From NCBI GenBank assembly GCA_003216455.1, contig QCIV01000008.1, positions 1 through 48,289 on the forward strand: a DNA stretch of 48,289 nt. Reading direction: 5' to 3'. Numbering within the stretch: the first letter of the stretch is position 1; every line of letters begins with the position of its first letter. Of this stretch, positions 9,270 to 26,973 are shown piece after piece. The notes under the pieces are model-generated. The model searched no databases and was not told the origin of the DNA. It saw only the letters and a program-made list of their open reading frames with translations. A program made the translations under genes and the position numbers. The DNA is from Prochlorococcus sp. AG-402-N17 (GTDB taxonomy: Bacteria; Cyanobacteriota; Cyanobacteriia; PCC-6307; Cyanobiaceae).

Positions 9270-9944
9270 GTGTTTTTTTATTTATTTATTGATACAGTAA
9301 AAAATATATGTAATAAAACATTGACTTTTAAATTTAAAAGAAAGCGTATTTTACTATCTGAAAAAAATAAAAACTCTAAAGCAATAGGTTATGCTAGAGC
9401 TACTAATGATGAATATGAATATTTAGATGAACAAATAAAAATTTTAAAGGAAGAGGGTTGCAGTTTAGTTTTCTCTGAATTTATAAGTTTAGATGAAGAA
9501 ATCAAACCTCAACTTAATAAAGCTATGAATTGCTTATCTAGAGGCGATCAATTAATAATAACTCAGCTTGACCGAGCCTTTAAAAATAAAAAAGAATGTT
9601 TGAGGACAATAAATAAACTTATTAATAAGGATATTAAATTACGAACTTTGACTGGTTTTTTTGCTGCTAATGAATCCTCTAGTGAAAGTTCTTCAATTTT
9701 TAAAATTTTATATGAATTAGATTATTTAGAAGACAAAAGTTTAAGTGAAAGAAAAAAAGAACAACTATTACGCAGAAAATTATCTGGAAATAATCTGGGA
9801 GGAAGGCCCAAAATAAGTCCTTTAAAAGAATCTTTAGTAATAAGATTGCGCAATGAAGGATATTCATATCGATCAATCAGATCACAAACAGGAATTGCAT
9901 TATCAACAATAAGAAGAGTGATTTTGGAAGGAGAATTAACATAA
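9270..9944 (+). CDS. Serine-recombinase (resolvase/invertase)-like protein with altered active site
   Basis: A 224-residue protein that aligns along its whole length with the gamma-delta/Tn3 resolvase family after an N-terminal extension of about 37 residues: catalytic domain from KAIGYARATND, the core motif ITQLDRAFKNK, the E-helix region LEDKSLSERKK, then a GGRP hinge and a C-terminal helix-turn-helix (SYRSIRSQTGIALSTIRRV). The position of the nucleophilic Ser in YARVST is Thr45 here, and by my alignment the Arg equivalents of 45, 71 and 119 are Lys, Lys and Asp. The Arg after Tyr-Ala and the Arg of LDR are kept. It may bind DNA without recombining it. The GTG start is uncertain; TTG at 9321 is an alternative. 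A small acidic gene follows after one base. Confidence 0.8.
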   Translation: MFFYLFIDTVKNICNKTLTFKFKRKRILLSEKNKNSKAIGYARATNDEYEYLDEQIKILKEEGCSLVFSEFISLDEEIKPQLNKAMNCLSRGDQLIITQLDRAFKNKKECLRTINKLINKDIKLRTLTGFFAANESSSESSSIFKILYELDYLEDKSLSERKKEQLLRRKLSGNNLGGRPKISPLKESLVIRLRNEGYSYRSIRSQTGIALSTIRRVILEGELT

Positions 9945-19082: not shown

Positions 19083-20885
19083 TTGAAAGGAATTGCTATA
19101 GGTCTATCTAATAATTCAAAAGAAATTTTAAAAAGGCTTAAAAAAACCGAATTTGTCAAAGATATATACATTGCAGGATCTTCAAAAAATGATGGAGAAG
19201 AAAATGAACTTTTTCAAATACAAAAACCTAGAGAAATCTTACTTAAAAAATGGCTGGAGATAGATTTAATAATTTTTATAGGCTCCATTGCTGCATCAAT
19301 ACGCATAATAAATTCTTTTTTAACTTCTAAAGATCAAGATCCTGGTGTAATAGTTATAGATAACAAATGTTCCAAGATAGTTCCCTTAATTGGCTTACAT
19401 CAGTCAAATACGCAAAATATCGCATTTCAAATTGCTAATTTACTTGGTGGCGAAATAATAGAAACTAATAATTCCAATGATCAAAGCTTCTTAAATCTTG
19501 ATGCATTTGGGAATCAATGGGGTTGGGAAAGATCTGGCAACATAAAGGATTGGTCAAAACTAGTAATTAAACAAGCTAAGAACGAAAAAATATTTTGCAA
19601 ACAGTTATCTGGTAATAAATTATGGAAAAATTCAGAATCAGGAGAGATTATTAATCAAATTAATGAAAAAGAAATTGAAAAACCAGATTCAACATTTCAT
19701 GTGAGTATATTCGAAAATCATGAAACAACTTGGCACCCGCCCGTATTATGGATTGGCATTGGATGTGAAAGAAATACCAGCAAAGAATTAATAGCAAATT
19801 CTTTAAATAATTTATTGGAGTCAAGAAATTTATCCAAATATTCAATTGCGGGACTTGCAACGGTTGATATTAAAAAAGATGAGAAAGGAATTTTAGAACT
19901 TGCTGAAGAAAAAAACTTGCCTATAAAGTTTTTTAGTAAAGAAGATCTTTCAACAATAATTGTTCCAAATCCTTCAAGAGTTGTAGAAAAAGAAATTGGC
20001 ACACCTTCTGTAGCAGAAGCCTCTTGCTTACTAGCAGCAGGAGAAGAATCAAAATTATTAGAAGAAAAAAAAATTTTTAAAAATCAATCTGGGGCAGTAA
20101 CTTTCGCTGTAGCAGAATCAAAAAATCAATATAATCCAACCCATGGCGAAATACACATTGTTGGAAGTGGGCCTGGTGATATCTCCTTCCTAACCAATAA
20201 TGCAAAAAAAGCACTTTCAAGATGTTCTGTTTGGATCGGATACACAATGTATTTAGAATTAATTAAGCCCTTAAAAAGGGGTGACCAAGTTTTAATTGAA
20301 AGTAACCTTACTGAAGAAAAAGATAGATGCCTTAAAGCAATTAAACTAGCCGATGAAGGAATAAAAGTGGCTTTAATTTCCTCAGGTGAATCTGGATTTT
20401 ATGGCATGGCTGGTTTACTTTTAGAATTACTTCAAAAAATCAAAAAAGAATATAGACCTTACTTTGAAGTACATCCAGGTATAAGTAGTGTTCAATTAGC
20501 GGCTGCGATTAGTGGGGCACCACTAATGAATGACTTTTGTTCAATAAGCTTAAGCGATAAATTAACTCCATGGTCCTTAATAGAAAAAAGAATTGAAGGA
20601 GCTCTTATAGGTGACTTTGTAATAGCTTTATTTAATCCTCAATCCATTGAGAGAAATTGGCAACTAAAAAGTGTAATAGATATATGTTTACAATCTAGGC
20701 TTGGAGATACTCCAGTCTTAATAGCTAGGCAAGTAGGGAGAGAAAATCAATCAAAAAAATTTTTTACTTTAAACACCATTCCTTTAAAAGAGATTGATAT
20801 GTTATCAATCATTATTATTGGCAATTCTCAAACAACCTTAGTTGATGAAATATTTCTCACTCCCAGGGGATATTTACAAAATTAA
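19083..20885 (+). CDS. cobJ: CbiG-CobJ fusion: cobalamin ring-contraction proteins
   Basis: A 600-residue two-part enzyme of corrin ring synthesis. The first 340 residues match CbiG, the lactone-opening/acetaldehyde-releasing protein: IFIGSIAASIRI, LGGEIIETNN, then the C-terminal CbiG core WIGIGCERNTS, GLATVDIKKDE and TPSVAEASCLLAAG. From residue 356 (EIHIVGSGPGD) it is a CobJ/CbiH-type precorrin-3B C17-methyltransferase with SSGESGFYGMAG and HPGISSVQLAAA. Together they carry out C17 methylation with ring contraction and the next step. Prochlorococcus makes pseudocobalamin, so the gene fits. The start is a TTG at 19083 just before KGIAIGLS; a Shine-Dalgarno is lacking. Confidence 0.92.
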   Translation: MKGIAIGLSNNSKEILKRLKKTEFVKDIYIAGSSKNDGEENELFQIQKPREILLKKWLEIDLIIFIGSIAASIRIINSFLTSKDQDPGVIVIDNKCSKIVPLIGLHQSNTQNIAFQIANLLGGEIIETNNSNDQSFLNLDAFGNQWGWERSGNIKDWSKLVIKQAKNEKIFCKQLSGNKLWKNSESGEIINQINEKEIEKPDSTFHVSIFENHETTWHPPVLWIGIGCERNTSKELIANSLNNLLESRNLSKYSIAGLATVDIKKDEKGILELAEEKNLPIKFFSKEDLSTIIVPNPSRVVEKEIGTPSVAEASCLLAAGEESKLLEEKKIFKNQSGAVTFAVAESKNQYNPTHGEIHIVGSGPGDISFLTNNAKKALSRCSVWIGYTMYLELIKPLKRGDQVLIESNLTEEKDRCLKAIKLADEGIKVALISSGESGFYGMAGLLLELLQKIKKEYRPYFEVHPGISSVQLAAAISGAPLMNDFCSISLSDKLTPWSLIEKRIEGALIGDFVIALFNPQSIERNWQLKSVIDICLQSRLGDTPVLIARQVGRENQSKKFFTLNTIPLKEIDMLSIIIIGNSQTTLVDEIFLTPRGYLQN

Positions 20886-20977
20886 ATTTAGATCATAAAT
20901 TAATTATCCATAGAATTCTTTTTTTTGCTTTTTTTTAATAAGAATACTAATCTTTTATAAAGGATTAAGAAAATTCA

Positions 20978-21775
20978 TTGAAAAATATTGGTTTAATTTT
21001 ATTTGACATAGATGGTGTAATACGCAGCGTAGAGAATAGTTACAGACTTTCATTAAAAAAAACAGTTTACAAATTTTCTGGATGGGAGCCAAGTTATATT
21101 GATATTGATAATGCCAAAAATGAAGGGATCTGGAATAATGACTGGGATTTAAGTTTAGAATTTATAAAAAGATTTAAAAAAAAAGAGAACTTAAACCTTG
21201 AGATCCCAACTAGGGATGAGATTGTTAAATGTTTTGAAGAATTTTACTTTGGAGGAGATCCAAATAAAGATAGCAAATATTGGTCTGGATTCATAACAAA
21301 TGAGGAATTATTAGTTGATAAAAAGTTTTTTGATTTATTAGAAAACAATGGCATTATATGGGGTTTTGTGAGTGGTGCGGAGTATGCCTCTGCAAAATTT
21401 GTTTTAGAAAAAAGACTTGGACTAAAATCACCTCCATTAATATCTATGGGAGACGCGCCGGACAAACCTGATCCTAAGGGCTTTATATACTTATCCAAAA
21501 AACTTCTTGGAGATAAACTTGGCTCATCAAATATTCCCATTGGATATGTAGGAGATACTATTGCAGACATAAATACAGTTATGAACGCTAAAAAGGAAAT
21601 CCCATCTCAGAAATTTGTAAGTATTGGAATAGCTCCTCCTCATTTACATTTAAAGTCTCGATTAAATGAACGTAATTCATACGAAAAAACTCTAAAGGAT
21701 GCAGGTGCTGACTTGATTTTAAATTCTATTAATGACCTAAATCTATTAATCTTGCCCTATTTTAAAAAAATATAA
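20978..21775 (+). CDS. HAD superfamily phosphatase-like protein
   Basis: A 265-residue haloacid dehalogenase-type hydrolase. The nucleophile Asp10 and acid Asp12 lie in LFDIDGVIRS, motif II is the Ser of FVSGAEYAS, the Lys motif is in DKPDPKGF, and the acidic motif IV is GYVGDTIADINT. Its features match the subfamily known as TIGR01548, common in cyanobacteria and of unknown substrate. The start is a TTG at 20978 with AGGA 13 nt upstream, a weak Shine-Dalgarno. It follows the CbiG-CobJ gene on the same strand after 92 nt. It is the last core-type gene before the tRNA-Ser-bounded region. Confidence 0.85.
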   Translation: MKNIGLILFDIDGVIRSVENSYRLSLKKTVYKFSGWEPSYIDIDNAKNEGIWNNDWDLSLEFIKRFKKKENLNLEIPTRDEIVKCFEEFYFGGDPNKDSKYWSGFITNEELLVDKKFFDLLENNGIIWGFVSGAEYASAKFVLEKRLGLKSPPLISMGDAPDKPDPKGFIYLSKKLLGDKLGSSNIPIGYVGDTIADINTVMNAKKEIPSQKFVSIGIAPPHLHLKSRLNERNSYEKTLKDAGADLILNSINDLNLLILPYFKKI

Positions 21776-21800
21776 ATTAGAAGATATTTCTTGATTAAGT

Positions 21801-21812
21801 ACGGAGAGGGAG
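21801..21812. repeat. Left att-like copy of the tRNA-Ser 3' end
   Basis: Twelve bases identical to 25048-25059, in the same orientation. It covers the discriminator base and the whole 7-bp acceptor arm of tRNA-Ser plus three bases of the T arm. The sequence then diverges (TTCATTAG against the T-arm GGATTCGA). It lies 25 nt after the HAD gene, so the copy is not part of a gene. A chance match of this length, in this orientation and at the edge of an accessory patch, is unlikely. Confidence 0.5.
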
Positions 21813-21832
21813 TTCATTAGAGTGAACCTAAA

Positions 21833-21862
21833 TGGAAGTATATGGAACTATATGGAAGCATA
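21833..21862. repeat. Three 10-bp tandem repeats (TGGAANNATA)
   Basis: Three direct, imperfect 10-bp units in a row: TGGAAGTATA, TGGAACTATA, TGGAAGCATA. The 10-bp period puts each unit on the same face of the helix. They lie 20 bp inside the left att-like repeat. They could be binding sites for a DNA-binding or recombination protein. A 42-codon frame that runs over them (21832-21960) is probably accidental. Confidence 0.6.
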
Positions 21863-21880
21863 AAAATGAAAAAAGGAGGA

Positions 21881-21906
21881 TTTCCTACCTTAAATCCTAC
21901 CCTCTT
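21881..21906. repeat. Left pair of TTTCCTACC repeats
   Basis: TTTCCTACC at 21881-21889 and ATCCTACCC at 21894-21902 form a direct pair about 12 bp apart. The right flank at 24889-24935 has three more of these, and the two sets share a longer mosaic: on the reverse strand AGGGTAGGA, TTTAAG and then GNAGGAAAT. They may be arm-type recombinase sites or a remnant duplicated during insertion. Confidence 0.5.
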
Positions 21907-21993
21907 GCTTTTACTACAATTTGTTCCTCTAATTTCAAAGATTTGGAAAGCTATCATTGACTAAATAGGAAAGAAATCAAAAAAAACTCTTTA

Positions 21994-22212
21994 TCATTGT
22001 GAATTCTCCAATTGAGATATTCTCTTTTTTATTTCATCTAATTCATCTGAAAGACTTTTATTAATTTCACCTGGAATGTATGTTTTTATCTTTTCATATA
22101 ATATTTCTTTGCACAAAGCATTCAATTTAATATTCCTCGAAAGTGCTAATAATTTAAGAGCTTTAAGCAAGTCATTTTCAATTTCTATATTTAATTGAGT
22201 TCTTTTTTTCAT
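21994..22212 (-). CDS. Small ribbon-helix-helix DNA-binding protein
   Basis: A 72-residue protein with the pattern of an Arc/CopG-type ribbon-helix-helix fold: a short N-terminal strand (RTQLNIEIE), helix one (NDLLKALKLLALSRN) and helix two (LNALCKEILYEKIKTYI). A heptad-rich C-terminal tail (SDELDEIKKRISQLEN) could form a coiled coil. Such proteins are dimeric repressors that bind short palindromes, often their own promoters. It is divergent from a second, 44-residue protein of the same fold at 22404, with a 191-nt spacer that contains a perfect palindrome. No toxin gene is obvious beside it. The ATG start has no strong Shine-Dalgarno. Confidence 0.7.
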   Translation of the reverse strand: MKKRTQLNIEIENDLLKALKLLALSRNIKLNALCKEILYEKIKTYIPGEINKSLSDELDEIKKRISQLENSQ

Positions 22213-22351
22213 TGTTTTATCTTAGTTGTAGGAAAATAGCTATACAGTTTTTTTTAATTATTTCTTTATCTAAAAAAATCAAATATCAATAAAAGTTTAA
22301 TCTATATGAAGTTTTATATGATTTATTCCTAGTTTTCTAGTAAATATATTA

Positions 22352-22374
22352 TAAATGAAAATTATTTTCATTTA
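22352..22374. repeat. Perfect 23-bp palindrome (11-bp arms, 1-bp centre)
   Basis: The arms TAAATGAAAAT and ATTTTCATTTA are perfect inverted copies around one T. It ends 29 bp before the ATG of the 44-residue ribbon-helix-helix gene, in the spacer between two divergent genes of that fold. This is where an autoregulatory operator would sit. No T run follows, so it is not a terminator. Confidence 0.6.
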
Positions 22375-22403
22375 ATTAGTTTACTTCGAAACTTTTTATC
22401 TAA

Positions 22404-22538
22404 ATGAATAAAAAAGTCTTAAGCCTAATTTTAGAAGAAAAAGTTTTAAAAATCTTAAAAAAAAATGCTGTTAGAGAGGGTATATCTATTGAAGAATATG
22501 TAATAAAAGTCTTAGAAGAATTTAATAATGTTAAGTGA
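22404..22538 (+). CDS. 44-residue ribbon-helix-helix mini-protein
   Basis: A very short gene, below usual length cut-offs. The protein starts MNKKVLSLILEEKVLKILKK, and its second half NAVREGISIEEYVIKVLEEF has the Gly-hinge-and-second-helix pattern of the ribbon-helix-helix fold (compare xGxSxEEYVxxxL). Its last 11 bases overlap the start of the NTF2-like gene, whose ATG is at 22528 in another frame, so translation is probably coupled. A dimeric repressor role is likely by fold. The coding call rests on the fold pattern and the overlap arrangement. Confidence 0.65.
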   Translation: MNKKVLSLILEEKVLKILKKNAVREGISIEEYVIKVLEEFNNVK

Positions 22539-22929
22539 AGAAGAAAAAATTATTCAATTAATAGATAACTTTACAACGAATGATTTTGGTGAGTTTTTGC
22601 TTGATAATGCAACGAAAGATTTTCTCTTTATTCGCCCAAGTGGTAATCCAATAGATGCTTTGGGTTTTATTAAAATGAAAACCTCTGGTGAATTATCTTG
22701 CGATGGATATACAGATATTAAAAAAATTCGTAAATTAGAATTTTTATCTAATGATGTTGCTATGTGTGTTTTTACTTTGAGATCTAGTTTTGTCTACAAA
22801 GATATTCAAAATAGCGACTTAGCTACTGTTACTACGATATTAAAGAAAATAAATAATCAATGGAAATTATCATGGATGCATAGATCATCTGGAGATTCAG
22901 ACCTTTCGCTATGGGACTCATATCTGTAA
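22528..22929 (+). CDS. NTF2-like (SnoaL/DUF4440-type) protein
   Basis: A 133-residue protein with the layout of an NTF2-like cone fold: N-terminal helices (EEEKIIQLIDNF), a central part ending in IRKLEFLSNDVAMCVFTL, and the typical final strands ATVTTILKKINNQWKLSWMHRSSG. In related proteins the last motif is followed by an acidic tail, as here. The fold is used by isomerases, dehydratases and ligand-binding proteins, so activity cannot be stated. Its start overlaps the end of the 44-residue ribbon-helix-helix gene. A 129-nt spacer with CTAG-rich repeats separates it from the export gene. Confidence 0.65.
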   Translation: MLSEEEKIIQLIDNFTTNDFGEFLLDNATKDFLFIRPSGNPIDALGFIKMKTSGELSCDGYTDIKKIRKLEFLSNDVAMCVFTLRSSFVYKDIQNSDLATVTTILKKINNQWKLSWMHRSSGDSDLSLWDSYL

Positions 22930-23058
22930 TTGCTACAAAAAGGATTAACCTAATTCAAAATGTTCTTTGATCAGCTTCAGCAAAAGTATTTAATATTTTA
23001 ACTAGATAGCTATAAGACTAGAAAACTAGTAAACTTTAAACTAATTGATTTCCGATTC

Positions 23059-24786
23059 TTGAGAGTTCAAAAAAATATCCCTGAAAAATTTTTTGGATTA
23101 CTTTCATTTAAAAGTAATTTTAAATTGCTTTTTATTTTTAATTTTTTAATATCTTTTTTTATATTTGACCTCGTCAAGACAGAAAGTAATAATGCAACTT
23201 TGAATAGCAATAATGAGCTTGTAATAGATTATTTAGATTCAAAAAGTGAATTAGAAGACCTCAATCTTGATTCGGAAACTATTGAACTAATTCTTGAAAA
23301 TGCGAAAAATAGAACTGAGATTGATATTGATTATTTAAATCCAAAAAATGAATTGGAGGACTACATAGTTGATACTGGAGATTCTCTATTAATAGAATTT
23401 AAAAATAAACCAAGAGGATTAGGATTAATTGAATGGGAATATGATCCAGAAAATATAGCCTATCTGAAACCTAGGAATGATTTAAGAAATTACAAATTAG
23501 ATGAGGGAGATACTTTATCTATTCGATTTTTAGAAACTCCCGAACTAAATGTTAACCAAACAATTGATCAGGAAGGAGAAATATATCTTTCTCGATTGAA
23601 ATCAACTTATATAAAGGGTCTCAACATATATCAATTAAAAAAATTATTAGAGAAAAAATATAAAGAATTCCTTGTTGATCCTGAAATTGAGATCCGAATT
23701 TCAAGATTTAGATTCATTGGTTCTGGAATATATTCAATAAATAACGAAGGAGAGCTCATGCTCCCACTAATTAAAGAAACTTACGTTAGGGGATTAACTA
23801 CAAATGAAATATCTAATTTATTAAGTAAAAAATATTTAAATTCGAAATATATTTCTTCAGAAGTAGACATTAGAATAGCTAAATTTAAACCTCAAAGAAT
23901 CTTAATAACTGGCGAAATAAGAAATCCTGGAATCTATAAATTCGCAGGTTATAGTTCTGGAGAATTTCTTGCAGTAGAAAATATTAAAGATAATACATCT
24001 CAAATACGAGAAATGGAAAATGATACTGAAGACTCTATTTCAAAAGAAATTGATGGAGATAATATGACTAAAGGGCAATTGAATAGAAGGGAATCAAATG
24101 CATCTTTAAATCAAATTTCGCAGAACAATAATACAAGGCAAAGTTTTCAAATAAAACGCCCATCTGAAAATTTTACTACTATCTCAAATGCAATTAGAAA
24201 AGCTGGAGGAGTAACTTCTAAAACTGATTTGTCTCGCATCGAAATTATAAGAGATATACCCATTGGAAAAGGAGGTGGAAAACAAAGAGCAGTAATCGAT
24301 TTCACTTCTTTTATAAATGAAAGTGATCCTACTAACGATATTAGATTATTTGACGGAGATAGAATATTCATACCAAAGCTTGCAACAGCTTCTTCTGATA
24401 TCATCCCAAAATCAATCCTAAGCGGTCTTTCTCCAAGATTCATAACGGTAGATATTTTTGGTAGAGTCGAAAATCCTGGAACTGTAAAATTACCTTTAGA
24501 AGCTGCATTATCAGATGCAATTAATTTAACTGGACCGATAAAACCTCTATCAGGAAAAATTGTTTTGATAAGGTATAACAAAGATGGAACAATTTTAAAC
24601 AAAAATATTTCTTATTCTGCTAGAGCAAAAAAAGGTTCTAAAAGAAATCCTTTTGTGCAACAAGGTGATTTAATATCTGTAAAAAATAGTCTATTAGGGA
24701 AAAGTACAGGAGTTATTAGAGAAATTACAGCACCATTTGTTGGGATTTATTCAACAAAAGAAATAATTGAAAGTTTTAATGATTGA
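23059..24786 (+). CDS. Polysaccharide export protein (Wza-like, PES/SLBB domains)
   Basis: A 575-residue secreted or outer-membrane-linked protein. A hydrophobic signal or anchor lies at residues 22-38. Three degenerate copies of Y-L-(D/N/K)-x-(K/R)-(S/N)-(E/D)-L occur near 58, 92 and 135; the second and third lead into D-x-G-D-x-L-x-I-x-F. The third opens a polysaccharide biosynthesis/export domain (DEGDTLSIRF to about 215), followed by SLBB-type domains (ILITGEIRNPGIYKF near 278 and VDIFGRVENPGTVKL near 465). A low-complexity Asn/Ser/Gln-rich stretch (about 325-370) splits the region. Such proteins form the export pore for capsule or exopolysaccharide. The start is a TTG at 23059. The long N-terminal repeat region is unusual for Wza. 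Confidence 0.85.
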   Translation: MRVQKNIPEKFFGLLSFKSNFKLLFIFNFLISFFIFDLVKTESNNATLNSNNELVIDYLDSKSELEDLNLDSETIELILENAKNRTEIDIDYLNPKNELEDYIVDTGDSLLIEFKNKPRGLGLIEWEYDPENIAYLKPRNDLRNYKLDEGDTLSIRFLETPELNVNQTIDQEGEIYLSRLKSTYIKGLNIYQLKKLLEKKYKEFLVDPEIEIRISRFRFIGSGIYSINNEGELMLPLIKETYVRGLTTNEISNLLSKKYLNSKYISSEVDIRIAKFKPQRILITGEIRNPGIYKFAGYSSGEFLAVENIKDNTSQIREMENDTEDSISKEIDGDNMTKGQLNRRESNASLNQISQNNNTRQSFQIKRPSENFTTISNAIRKAGGVTSKTDLSRIEIIRDIPIGKGGGKQRAVIDFTSFINESDPTNDIRLFDGDRIFIPKLATASSDIIPKSILSGLSPRFITVDIFGRVENPGTVKLPLEAALSDAINLTGPIKPLSGKIVLIRYNKDGTILNKNISYSARAKKGSKRNPFVQQGDLISVKNSLLGKSTGVIREITAPFVGIYSTKEIIESFND

Positions 24787-24862
24787 TTAACAATTTTAAA
24801 AAAATCCCTTGTGCATGGATCAAATTCTCTAAAAAATAGAGGTGGATTATCTCAGTCCATAA

Positions 24863-25033
24863 TTATGCATACCCTGCTACGACTGATATTTCCTGCCCTC
24901 TGTACTTAAATTTCCTACCCTTTTTCCTACCTCCCAAACGTGAAATTCCCTGATACTCTGTGAATGTCTCTGATTTTCCTTTTTCTGCAAAAGTATTAGT
25001 ATCACTAGCTTCAGGAACATTATGAACTTCCAT
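24863..25033 (-). CDS. Possible 56-residue ORF beside tRNA-Ser
   Basis: A short frame with an ATG at 25033 that begins MEVHNVPEASDTN and ends VVAGYA; its middle GGRKKGRKFKYRG comes from the GGTAGGAAA repeats. It starts 16 nt after the tRNA 3' end on the same strand, so it could be on the tRNA transcript. I do not recognise it. It may be real, a fragment of a lost recombinase gene, or simply an open frame over the repeat sites. Low certainty. Confidence 0.25.
   Translation of the reverse strand: MEVHNVPEASDTNTFAEKGKSETFTEYQGISRLGGRKKGRKFKYRGQEISVVAGYA
24889..24935. repeat. Right set of TTTCCTACC repeats
   Basis: Three copies: TTTCCTGCCCTCTG at 24889, TTTCCTACCCTTTT at 24911 and TTTCCTACCTCCC at 24923. 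They match the pair at 21881-21902 and have the same orientation. They sit about 115-160 bp inside the right end of the candidate island, in the 262-nt spacer between the export gene and tRNA-Ser. The spacer has no other clear feature apart from the doubtful 56-residue frame. Confidence 0.5.
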
Positions 25034-25048
25034 GCTCTACCAAAACCA

Positions 25049-25137
25049 CGGAGAGGGAGGGATTCGAACCCTCGACAAAAGTTACCTCCTGTAACTCCTT
25101 AGCAGGGAGCCGCTTTCAACCACTCAGCCACCTCTCC
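25049..25137 (-). tRNA. tRNA-Ser (GCU)
   Basis: The reverse strand folds as a type II tRNA: acceptor GGAGAGG with CCTCTCC, D arm with GGCTGAGTGGTTGAAAGC, anticodon stem GCTCC/GGAGT with loop CTGCTAA (anticodon GCT), a long variable arm, and a T arm with GGTTCGAATCCC. The discriminator is G and CCA is not encoded. It reads AGC and AGU codons. Its 3' end is repeated at 21801, which marks it as the likely insertion site of the neighbouring island. alr lies upstream on the same strand. Confidence 0.95.
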
Positions 25138-25198
25138 AGTTCTTATACATTATCAATATTTTTGCAAACATTCAAAATTTTTTATTTAATCGAAATGT

Positions 25199-26398
25199 CT
25201 AATCAACTTGAACTCTTGGTAATCTATTTTTAAAAGAACAAAGAATTTCCCATGGGATAGTATTAGATTTTCTTGCCCATTCAAGAGGAGAAATTGTTTT
25301 ATCTCCGTCAGATCCCAGTAATACCATTGTACTACCAATTCTAATTTCATTTGAATCTGTTATGTCGACCATCATTTGATCCATAGTTATGGATCCAACT
25401 TGGGGATAAAATTTATTATTATGGATGACGTTTATTTTTCCTGAAAGATTTCTTGGAACTCCATCTGCGTATCCAATACTTAATACAGCTAACTTAGTTT
25501 GTCTTCTACTTACAAACTTTCCTCCATAACTTACGCTTACACCTTGATCAATAATCCTAATAAAAGCTACATTAGCTTTCAAATATAAAGCTGGTTTAAG
25601 TAATAAATTTTTATCTATTTTGGCTAGAGGACTGTATCCGTACATAGAAAGCCCAACACGTACCATTTGAAAATGAAAATCTTTGTTTAGAAGCATTCCC
25701 GCAGAATTAGCCAAATGAATCTTAATTTCGTTATCTTGATCGAGATTAATTTGCTTCAATAATTCATTAAACTTCAGTCTTTGTAATTGTGTAATACTTT
25801 GAGAATTTAATGCGTTATCTTCATCTGCAGACGATAAATGACTATATATTCCTTCTATTGAAATATTCTCAAAAGATTTTATTTTTTCAAATTGCTGTAC
25901 AAACTTACTAGATTCAAACCCTAATCTTGACATTCCAGTATCAATTTTAAGATGTAAAGAAAATTTCAATCCAAAGTGCTTCCCGATATTATTGCAAATT
26001 AAACACTCTCTTATACTACTGATAGTTGGCATAAGATCGTTTTTAAAGGATATTATTAAATCTCTTTTTGTATATAAATTTCCGAGAATAAGAATTGGTT
26101 TTTTAACTCCAAAAGAACGTAGCTTAATCCCCTCTTTTAAAGTGGCAACACCTAATTCTGAAGCTCCGCCTCTAATAGCATAGTCAGATACTACTTTTGC
26201 ATCATGTCCATATCCATCAGCTTTTACAACCGCCATAAATTGACAGTTAGTACTCAGTTTTGTTCTTAATTGCCTTACATTTGCCTCTAATGCTTTACCT
26301 TTGACTTCTATCCATGCCCTTTGTTTTGGATCTATATCTTGTTCAAAAATTGGATATTTATCAAAATTAAATCCCTGTTTAGGTTGCCGATTTTGCAT
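25199..26398 (-). CDS. alr: Alanine racemase
   Basis: A PLP enzyme that interconverts L- and D-alanine and supplies D-Ala for peptidoglycan. At 399 residues it is close to family length. The PLP lysine is K59 in AVVKADGYGHD, and the second catalytic base, Tyr, is in VSYGGKFVS. The TIM-barrel motifs HLKIDTGMSRLGF, HLANSAGML and VRVGLSMYGYSP, and the C-terminal SIGYADG and QVGSITMDQMMVD, are all present. The ATG start is clear, about five bases from the divergent HNH gene region. The N-terminus has about 20 extra residues before the barrel. Confidence 0.96.
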   Translation of the reverse strand: MQNRQPKQGFNFDKYPIFEQDIDPKQRAWIEVKGKALEANVRQLRTKLSTNCQFMAVVKADGYGHDAKVVSDYAIRGGASELGVATLKEGIKLRSFGVKKPILILGNLYTKRDLIISFKNDLMPTISSIRECLICNNIGKHFGLKFSLHLKIDTGMSRLGFESSKFVQQFEKIKSFENISIEGIYSHLSSADEDNALNSQSITQLQRLKFNELLKQINLDQDNEIKIHLANSAGMLLNKDFHFQMVRVGLSMYGYSPLAKIDKNLLLKPALYLKANVAFIRIIDQGVSVSYGGKFVSRRQTKLAVLSIGYADGVPRNLSGKINVIHNNKFYPQVGSITMDQMMVDITDSNEIRIGSTMVLLGSDGDKTISPLEWARKSNTIPWEILCSFKNRLPRVQVD

Positions 26399-26466
26399 TA
26401 ACTTTGCACAATTTTATGCGCTTATTGAAATATACAGTTAGCATGACATGTAAATTGTATTTTGGC

Positions 26467-26973
26467 ATGAGCCAGACTCTAGTTTTAAATGCATCTTATG
26501 AACCTTTAAATATCACTTCTTGGCGAAGAGCAGTCATTTTGATGATCAAAGGTAAAGCAGAAAGCTTAGAGGAGGATAAATCATACTCAATACATTGTGG
26601 TAGAAAATTGCCAACAGTTATAAGACTTCGTTACTACGTGAAGGTACCTTTTAGAGAGGTTTCATTAACAAGAAAAAATATTCTTCTGAGAGATAATAAT
26701 TCTTGCCAGTACTGTAACTATAAAGGTAGTGACCTATCAATAGACCATGTTTTACCAAGAAGCAGGGGTGGAACAGATAACTGGGAAAATGTTACTACAG
26801 CATGTCTCAGATGTAATGTACAAAAAGGTAACCGAACCCCAGAAGAGGCAAATATGCCTTTAAAACGCAAGCCTTATCGTCCACTTAGTAATCTTAATTT
26901 TGAGGCCACAAGACAAATTGACTCTGGCAAACATAAAGAATGGAGTAAATACGTTATTGGAATTGCAATCTAA
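26467..26973 (+). CDS. HNH endonuclease family protein
   Basis: A protein of about 168 residues from the cyanobacterial HNH family that begins SQTLVLNASYEPLNITSWRRA. The HNH nuclease core is CQYCNYKGSDLSIDHVLPRSRGG with a second Cys pair in ACLRCNVQKG, a zinc-binding beta-beta-alpha-metal fold. I prefer the ATG at 26467, because this N-terminus is the conserved one; frames extending upstream to a TTG at 26404 or an ATG at 26443 add residues not typical of the family. It is divergent from alr and convergent with prfA, with 12 bases between stops. Its substrate, DNA or RNA, is unknown. Confidence 0.85.
   Translation: MSQTLVLNASYEPLNITSWRRAVILMIKGKAESLEEDKSYSIHCGRKLPTVIRLRYYVKVPFREVSLTRKNILLRDNNSCQYCNYKGSDLSIDHVLPRSRGGTDNWENVTTACLRCNVQKGNRTPEEANMPLKRKPYRPLSNLNFEATRQIDSGKHKEWSKYVIGIAI

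Follow-up and report, generated by a model that had tools for sequence, protein, structure and literature searches.

The DNA analysed here, a 48,289-nucleotide stretch of Prochlorococcus sp. AG-402-N17 (contig QCIV01000008.1, hereafter the window), carries a segment of 3,247 bp between a gene for a HAD-family hydrolase and a tRNA-Ser(GCU) gene, beyond which lies a gene for alanine racemase. Measured from core to core, the segment is bounded by a 12-bp copy of the tRNA-Ser(GCU) 3' end: ACGGAGAGGGAG occurs exactly at both ends and in the same orientation, in agreement with an initial annotation that had described an exact direct copy of the tRNA-Ser 3' end at 21801, correctly oriented for insertion at 25048. 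Searched at zero mismatches, ACGGAGAGGGAG is found in these two places only in the genome of the window (1.14 Mb in 36 contigs, 67% complete). The reversed core pattern, used as a control, matches once in this genome and 14 times across 266 genomes of the genus (counted by hand among the matches listed), and because the exact and reversed counts are this low, a chance 12-bp copy within 3.3 kb is improbable. When two mismatches are allowed, the window alone contains three matches against a mean of 0.96, which is not outstanding, as 8 of 100 shuffles reach three. An Rfam scan of 20800-26500 returned nothing besides the tRNA. The 3.2-kb segment is a site-specific insertion at the 3' end of tRNA-Ser(GCU). 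The features of the locus are collected in Table 1.

Table 1. Features of the insert, its ends and its host flanks (positions in the window).
Feature	Position	Strand	Basis or remark
HAD-family hydrolase, left host flank	20978-21775	+	PF00702; where the site is empty, adjoins the tRNA
Left core, displaced copy of the tRNA-Ser(GCU) 3' end (distal att half)	21801-21812	+	Exact match; empty sites have one copy, between HAD gene and tRNA
Three tandem ~10-bp repeats ATGGAAnnAT by the left core	21832-21861	+	Sequence; possibly accessory-protein sites
Left arm pair, class TTTCCTACCC	21881-21902	+	12-bp period
Possible ribbon-helix-helix protein, 72 amino acids (weak)	21994-22212	-	Below Pfam cut-offs; homologue in L067
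Possible ribbon-helix-helix protein, 44 amino acids (weak)	22404-22538	+	Below Pfam cut-offs; overlaps the DUF3804 gene
DUF3804 cargo gene	22528-22929	+	PF12707, E 2.7e-43
SLBB/polysaccharide-export cargo gene	23059-24786	+	PF02563, PF10531; TTG start as listed
Conserved right end of the element	24869-25047		Retained by elements of the same class whichever cargo block they carry; 7 of 266 genomes contain the exact pattern
Right arm pair, class TTTCCTACCC	24911-24931	+	12-bp period
Right core	25048-25059		Within tRNA-Ser(GCU)
tRNA-Ser(GCU)	25048-25138	-	Integration target; Rfam tRNA match
Alanine racemase, right host flank	25199-26398	-	PF01168, PF00842

Two genes of the insert have firm Pfam identities, the SLBB/polysaccharide-export gene and the DUF3804 gene. 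Four comparisons with relatives gave the SLBB gene a ratio of nonsynonymous to synonymous substitution rates (dN/dS) of 0.25-0.30, indicating that it is under purifying selection. The proposal that the genes between the two cores are accessory in kind stands only in part: of the assignments, SLBB export and DUF3804 are secure and the two ribbon-helix-helix ones weak, and the two firm families are widespread, with relatives of DUF3804 in 202 and of SLBB in 82 of the 266 genus genomes, mostly at 30-67% identity (among the matches listed), so that only their close copies are accessory. A NikA-like match of the 44-amino-acid protein is weak too and falls below cut-off (E 0.007). An open reading frame at 24863-25033 (minus strand, 56 amino acids), first taken as a gene, has no Pfam match, coincides with the conserved right end and is probably spurious. 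The insert had been said to contain no recombinase, and neither a recombinase nor a remnant of one was found in it by tblastn at E values up to 1; no transfer family scored above the Pfam cut-off among its genes.

Full-length SLBB relatives with at least 78% identity occur in eight genomes, six of them at tRNA-Ser(GCU), one (G133) at tRNA-Cys and one (G022) with no tRNA within the 20 kb examined. Close copies of the window's cargo genes away from tRNA-Ser(GCU) are present in these two genomes and in G195 and G187. In locus L205 (58-2397), an SLBB gene 78% identical to that of the window lies between two 3'-end copies of tRNA-Cys(GCA), with TTGCTGTC pairs of 11-bp period near both ends (recognised by eye), that is, the same cargo with another tRNA and other arms. 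In locus L207 (9977-10679), tRNA-Asn(GTT) is directly preceded by a DUF3804 gene that shares 74% identity with that of the window; no 12-bp-period pair was found there.

To compare the locus among relatives we used the HAD protein as query and took the best 80 of 555 loci by HAD similarity, nearly all from Prochlorococcus and a few from Synechococcaceae. Both flanks are visible in 79 of them (the contig of L062 ends early). The site is empty in most of these sampled relatives: in 50 of 79, only 28-72 bp separate the end of the HAD match from tRNA-Ser(GCU), with one copy of the core between, which is the arrangement that had been foreseen for island-free strains. In one such relative (L003, HAD 94.7% identical), 26 of the 28 bases ahead of the core match the window's bases ahead of 21801, and the comparison places the HAD-side boundary of the insert at the tRNA 3'-end core. 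The other 29 loci hold inserts of 243-8,342 bp; L004 (HAD 95.6% identical) has an insert different from the window's, and the window's island is present in G037 (HAD 86.5%). Neither of the two patterns held by the initial annotation to contradict an island was encountered: gene content at the site varies among relatives, and those with these genes at this locus keep the 12-bp copy with at most one mismatch. The island had further been thought unusually small; at this tRNA it is not, as 25 of the 29 inserts in relatives are shorter than 5 kb and 25 of the 29 are without a recombinase. Other cargo at the same tRNA (L063, L043, L012, L058, L004 and L075) includes a D12 DNA methyltransferase with DUF7687, an SRA-HNH protein, a carbamoyltransferase, a polysaccharide lyase, sulfotransferases and an acyltransferase, and represents surface chemistry and possibly defence.

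Inserts of unrelated content share one layout: each end has a pair of ~10-bp direct repeats, here called arms, which lies ~80 bp in from the core on the left and ~137 bp in on the right. In 50 segments (including two tRNA-Ser(CGA) loci, L147 and L156, and some near-duplicates), self-identity at a lag of 12 bp averages 0.31 on the left and 0.28 on the right, with peaks of 0.70 (+82 from the left core) and 0.67 (-136 from the right core). Lags of 9, 11, 13, 14 and 15 give no value above 0.42, and lag 10 has peaks of its own, 0.59 at about +33 on the left and 0.48 on the right. We sorted the arms into about ten classes: TTTCCTACCC, TTACCCACC, TTCGCCACACC, CCCAACAACA, CGTCACAACA, TTATCCCC, TTGTCCCC, TTTCATCCCC, CCGACAACA and CGTAACCC. 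Both ends of the window's element have the family layout, core and 12-bp-period arm pair, and their arms are of one class. Nine of the 266 genus genomes contain its arm pattern (reversed control, 0), and all nine matches are at the tRNA-Ser(GCU) locus: eight show the tRNA and G037 reaches it via an overlapping contig.

Left and right arms tend to agree within an element, at 16.8 of 20 positions versus 12.5 between elements, a difference reached by none of 20,000 permutations, which ignore kinship although same-class elements are partly related by descent. The 38 segments of this test remain from an earlier 48 after removal of duplicates and of segments shorter than 500 bp, since both arms are one site in short elements; L147 and L156 were excluded from all arm-concordance analyses. 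Among elements classed at both ends, 36 of 38 agree, or 31 of 33 if five elements of 215-219 bp whose arms are one site are set aside. Nine of the 47 distinct elements are unclassed at one or both ends; these 47 include loci chosen for their arms, recombinases or two cores, and proportions among them are therefore not population frequencies. The shortest forms, segments of 218/219 bp (L025, L036, L169 and L014) and one of 215 bp (L019), have a single arm pair, as if a left and a right arm had been fused (81 + 137 = 218), and the inserts of L014, L019 and L036 contain no open reading frame of at least 50 amino acids.

A tyrosine recombinase together with a homologue of serine resolvases is encoded in 4 of the 29 inserts, and the tyrosine recombinase is present in 7 of the 47 distinct elements and in 22 of the 266 genus genomes. 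The invariant columns of five of these proteins include Arg, Lys, His-x-x-Arg, His and Tyr, which form the catalytic set of tyrosine recombinases. The nine best-scoring recombinases (at least 575 bits) are all at the tRNA-Ser(GCU) site: in eight the locus includes the tRNA itself, and the ninth lies beside the HAD gene and a core. Because the search profile was built with five of these nine, a high score and this site are in part tied together by the design of the search. Of 14 weaker full-length recombinases, eight have a tRNA on the stretch examined (Asn-GUU, Ser-CGA or Ser-UGA), none of them Ser-GCU. The nine best cluster in a tree with a support of 0.98, and among well-supported sisters L144 and L139 have the same arms, while L142/L143 and L109/L145 have arms that are similar by eye. 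The recombinase N-terminus weakly resembles arm-binding domains: its match to 3jtz, a CP4-like integrase entry of 88 residues that we take to be such a domain, has an E value of 5e-4, and two of four recombinases tested match Arm-DNA-bind_3 below cut-off. A structural model built from four sequences (mean pLDDT 72.8, pTM 0.45) has lambda integrase as its best Foldseek match (E 2e-7, TM-score 0.27), which is weak support given the low confidence of the model and the low TM-score. The single-contig genome G043 contains three family recombinases, on loci that include tRNA-Ser(GCT) (L144), tRNA-Ser(TGA) (L150) and tRNA-Asn(GTT) (L154). Elsewhere in the window, a serine-resolvase-like gene (9270-9944; PF00239, E 1.9e-15) matches a profile built from the resolvases of these elements; no tRNA was found near it.

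Signs of transfer were sought at the boundaries and in pairs of related elements. From the core inwards, the window and G037 are 97-99.5% identical for the first 1.6 kb, and just outside the core they share 31 of 60 bases without gaps (0.64 over 26 bp with gaps). Further into the element, the SLBB gene is 89.5-97.5% identical and the right end 85%; the tRNA is unchanged (100%), followed by 60 bp at 98% and the alanine racemase gene at 88%. This profile has a sharp boundary on the left and is mosaic on the right. In 18 pairs of near-identical element starts, mean identity is 0.98 over the first 120 bp inside the core versus 0.68 in the 26 bp outside; these pairs were chosen for at least 0.9 inside, several are the same record or genome twice, and some of the outsides are another element. 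Six pairs come from four loci that share a related 1.4-kb element without a recombinase. The elements of L015 and L174 are 98.3% identical without gaps and those of L058 and L164 97.0%, with HAD and alanine racemase flanks at 87-88.5%. In L164 the element copy sits between the tRNA and ~1.5 kb of other DNA, and in L169 three elements of three classes follow one another in a run.

A viral link was also considered. The arm pattern occurs in nine IMG/VR contigs, none with a core or recombinase, and these were treated as unrelated without full analysis. One of them (L091) has a tRNA-Ser(GCT) 1.1 kb from the arm match and lacks the core. Among viral contigs at large, the left-core and right-end patterns have no match, and alignment of the recombinase gave one weak partial relative. 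These searches therefore yield no evidence for packaging in viral particles.

Taken together, these results identify the window's segment as an integrated cargo element without a recombinase, from a family of small integrative elements that target tRNA genes in Prochlorococcus, and make it probable that it is moved in trans by a recombinase that reads its arms. For the window's element itself, we infer this trans-mobilisation from the comparisons above, and our confidence in it was lowered slightly after a recount of the six pairs. In this reading, another element in the cell that encodes a tyrosine recombinase would supply the enzyme, the enzyme's N-terminal domain would bind the arm pairs and so join the two ends, and strand exchange within the acceptor-stem core would bring about excision and integration in trans. 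The arm sequence would set which helper moves which element, and the cargo would be retained through selection on the host. That the segment is instead a set of ordinary strain-variable genes beside a tRNA, with a coincidental 12-bp repeat, we find hardly credible: 12 bp is short, and the core and arm patterns were written after the sequences had been viewed, but the genome has two copies only, empty sites have a single copy in the interval and thereby contradict coincidence, and unrelated inserts are bounded by the same repeat. It is also rather improbable that the 12-bp-period pairs are replication iterons or regulator sites. Iterons, too, consist of direct repeats, and the arm role is putative; however, the pairs are found at both ends of cargo-only elements at a fixed distance from the core, and once in the ~218-bp elements, and elements with sister recombinases have equal or similar arms.

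Another history, which we judge unlikely, is that a formerly autonomous element lost its recombinase and has spread only by homologous recombination through the flanking core genes. Several observations fit it and weigh against movement in trans. Locus L109 (in G255) combines the window's left-arm class with a recombinase, a resolvase and an SLBB gene homologous to the window's, so that recombinase and SLBB gene occur together; it is the only recombinase-bearing element with the window's arm class, at its left end only, the right arm being of another class, the left arm lying ~20 bp nearer the core than usual and the core having one mismatch. Other relatives of the class have lost different parts: L067 is without the SLBB gene, L072, L106 and L108 are without the block of ribbon-helix-helix and DUF3804 genes, and several look like internal, nested deletion derivatives with differing breakpoints. 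L204 (HAD 73% identical) has the whole gene set, with no right arm found in it, and in G037 the right arm is degenerate and the right side mosaic; from these two cases homologous recombination also acts. In the remaining four of the six pairs the elements are 87.5-90.4% identical with gaps, no more alike than their flanks or barely above them. Also to be set against the trans route, the window's own genome (67% complete) yielded no recombinase of the family, the classes TTACCCACC, TTGTCCCC, CCGACAACA and CGTAACCC have no recombinase-bearing member in our set, and the arm classes are our own sorting, seven of the ten defined by patterns made by eye. Spread by flanking recombination alone is harder to reconcile with near-identical element starts next to diverged bases just outside the core, with arm pairs maintained at fixed positions, and with the L164 copy lying between the tRNA and other DNA. 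The wording of the initial annotation, a mobilised or decayed element, suits this mixture: some relatives look like deletions, yet some recombinase-less copies are near-identical in diverged hosts.

Beyond the window's element, we put forward, as a proposal for and against which we see about equal grounds, that arm pairs are a specificity code. About ten compatibility classes of mini-elements would coexist at one tRNA, most of the elements enzyme-less, and recombinases that recognise a class would move its members in trans; cargo between the arm pairs could be lost until a ~218-bp unit (81 + 137 bp) is left in which both ends share one pair, and could cross classes and target tRNAs. To our knowledge, most Prochlorococcus cells are without plasmids, prophages and conjugation, despite wide gene exchange. 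If the proposal is true, the mobility of much flexible DNA at tRNA-Ser(GCU) would be readable from ~250 bp of end sequence, and the pairing of helper and cargo would become directly testable. A literature search of titles and the beginnings of abstracts returned neither recombinase-less forms nor arm classes, and we make no claim that they are unpublished.

Attachment (att) sites of lambda/P4-type integrases consist of a core site and arm-type sites. The layout found here, core plus direct-repeat arm pairs, is likewise a core plus arm-type sites, and the recombinase N-terminal domain resembles arm-binding domains; unlike those systems, there are ~10 arm classes at one tRNA target and most carriers are without a recombinase. 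The tycheposons of Prochlorococcus, reportedly described by Hackl et al. in Cell in 2023, are defined in part by integration at a tRNA end with a partial copy at the far end, and the window's element has both; seven tRNA targets are reported for them. Like them, it belongs to cargo-carrying elements at Prochlorococcus tRNA genes with a tyrosine recombinase in family members, and relatives at its tRNA have such a recombinase and a serine resolvase. The element itself lacks its own tyrosine recombinase, present in the 4 inserts mentioned above, and at 3,247 bp it is below the 4-200 kb quoted in the part of PMC10872708 consulted, which places it outside the tycheposons in the strict sense; arm-pair classes, left/right agreement and ~218-bp forms do not appear in that part of the source. 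The cis-mobilizable elements (CIMEs), for which the sections consulted of PMC5704250 describe a route in cis with a tandem neighbour, and which have been suggested for some Dehalococcoides ssrA islands (PMC3146451, consulted in part), offer a second comparison. The window's insert, with neither a recombinase nor a transfer family above cut-off, resembles them in having no integration or transfer genes and in retaining, by sequence, both att ends, with cores and both arm pairs present; tandem runs are seen in L169 and L164. It differs from CIMEs in standing alone, and being solitary it would need a trans route rather than the CIME route in cis. The best reading of the window's element is a recombinase-less relative of tycheposons that is CIME-like and probably mobilised in trans.

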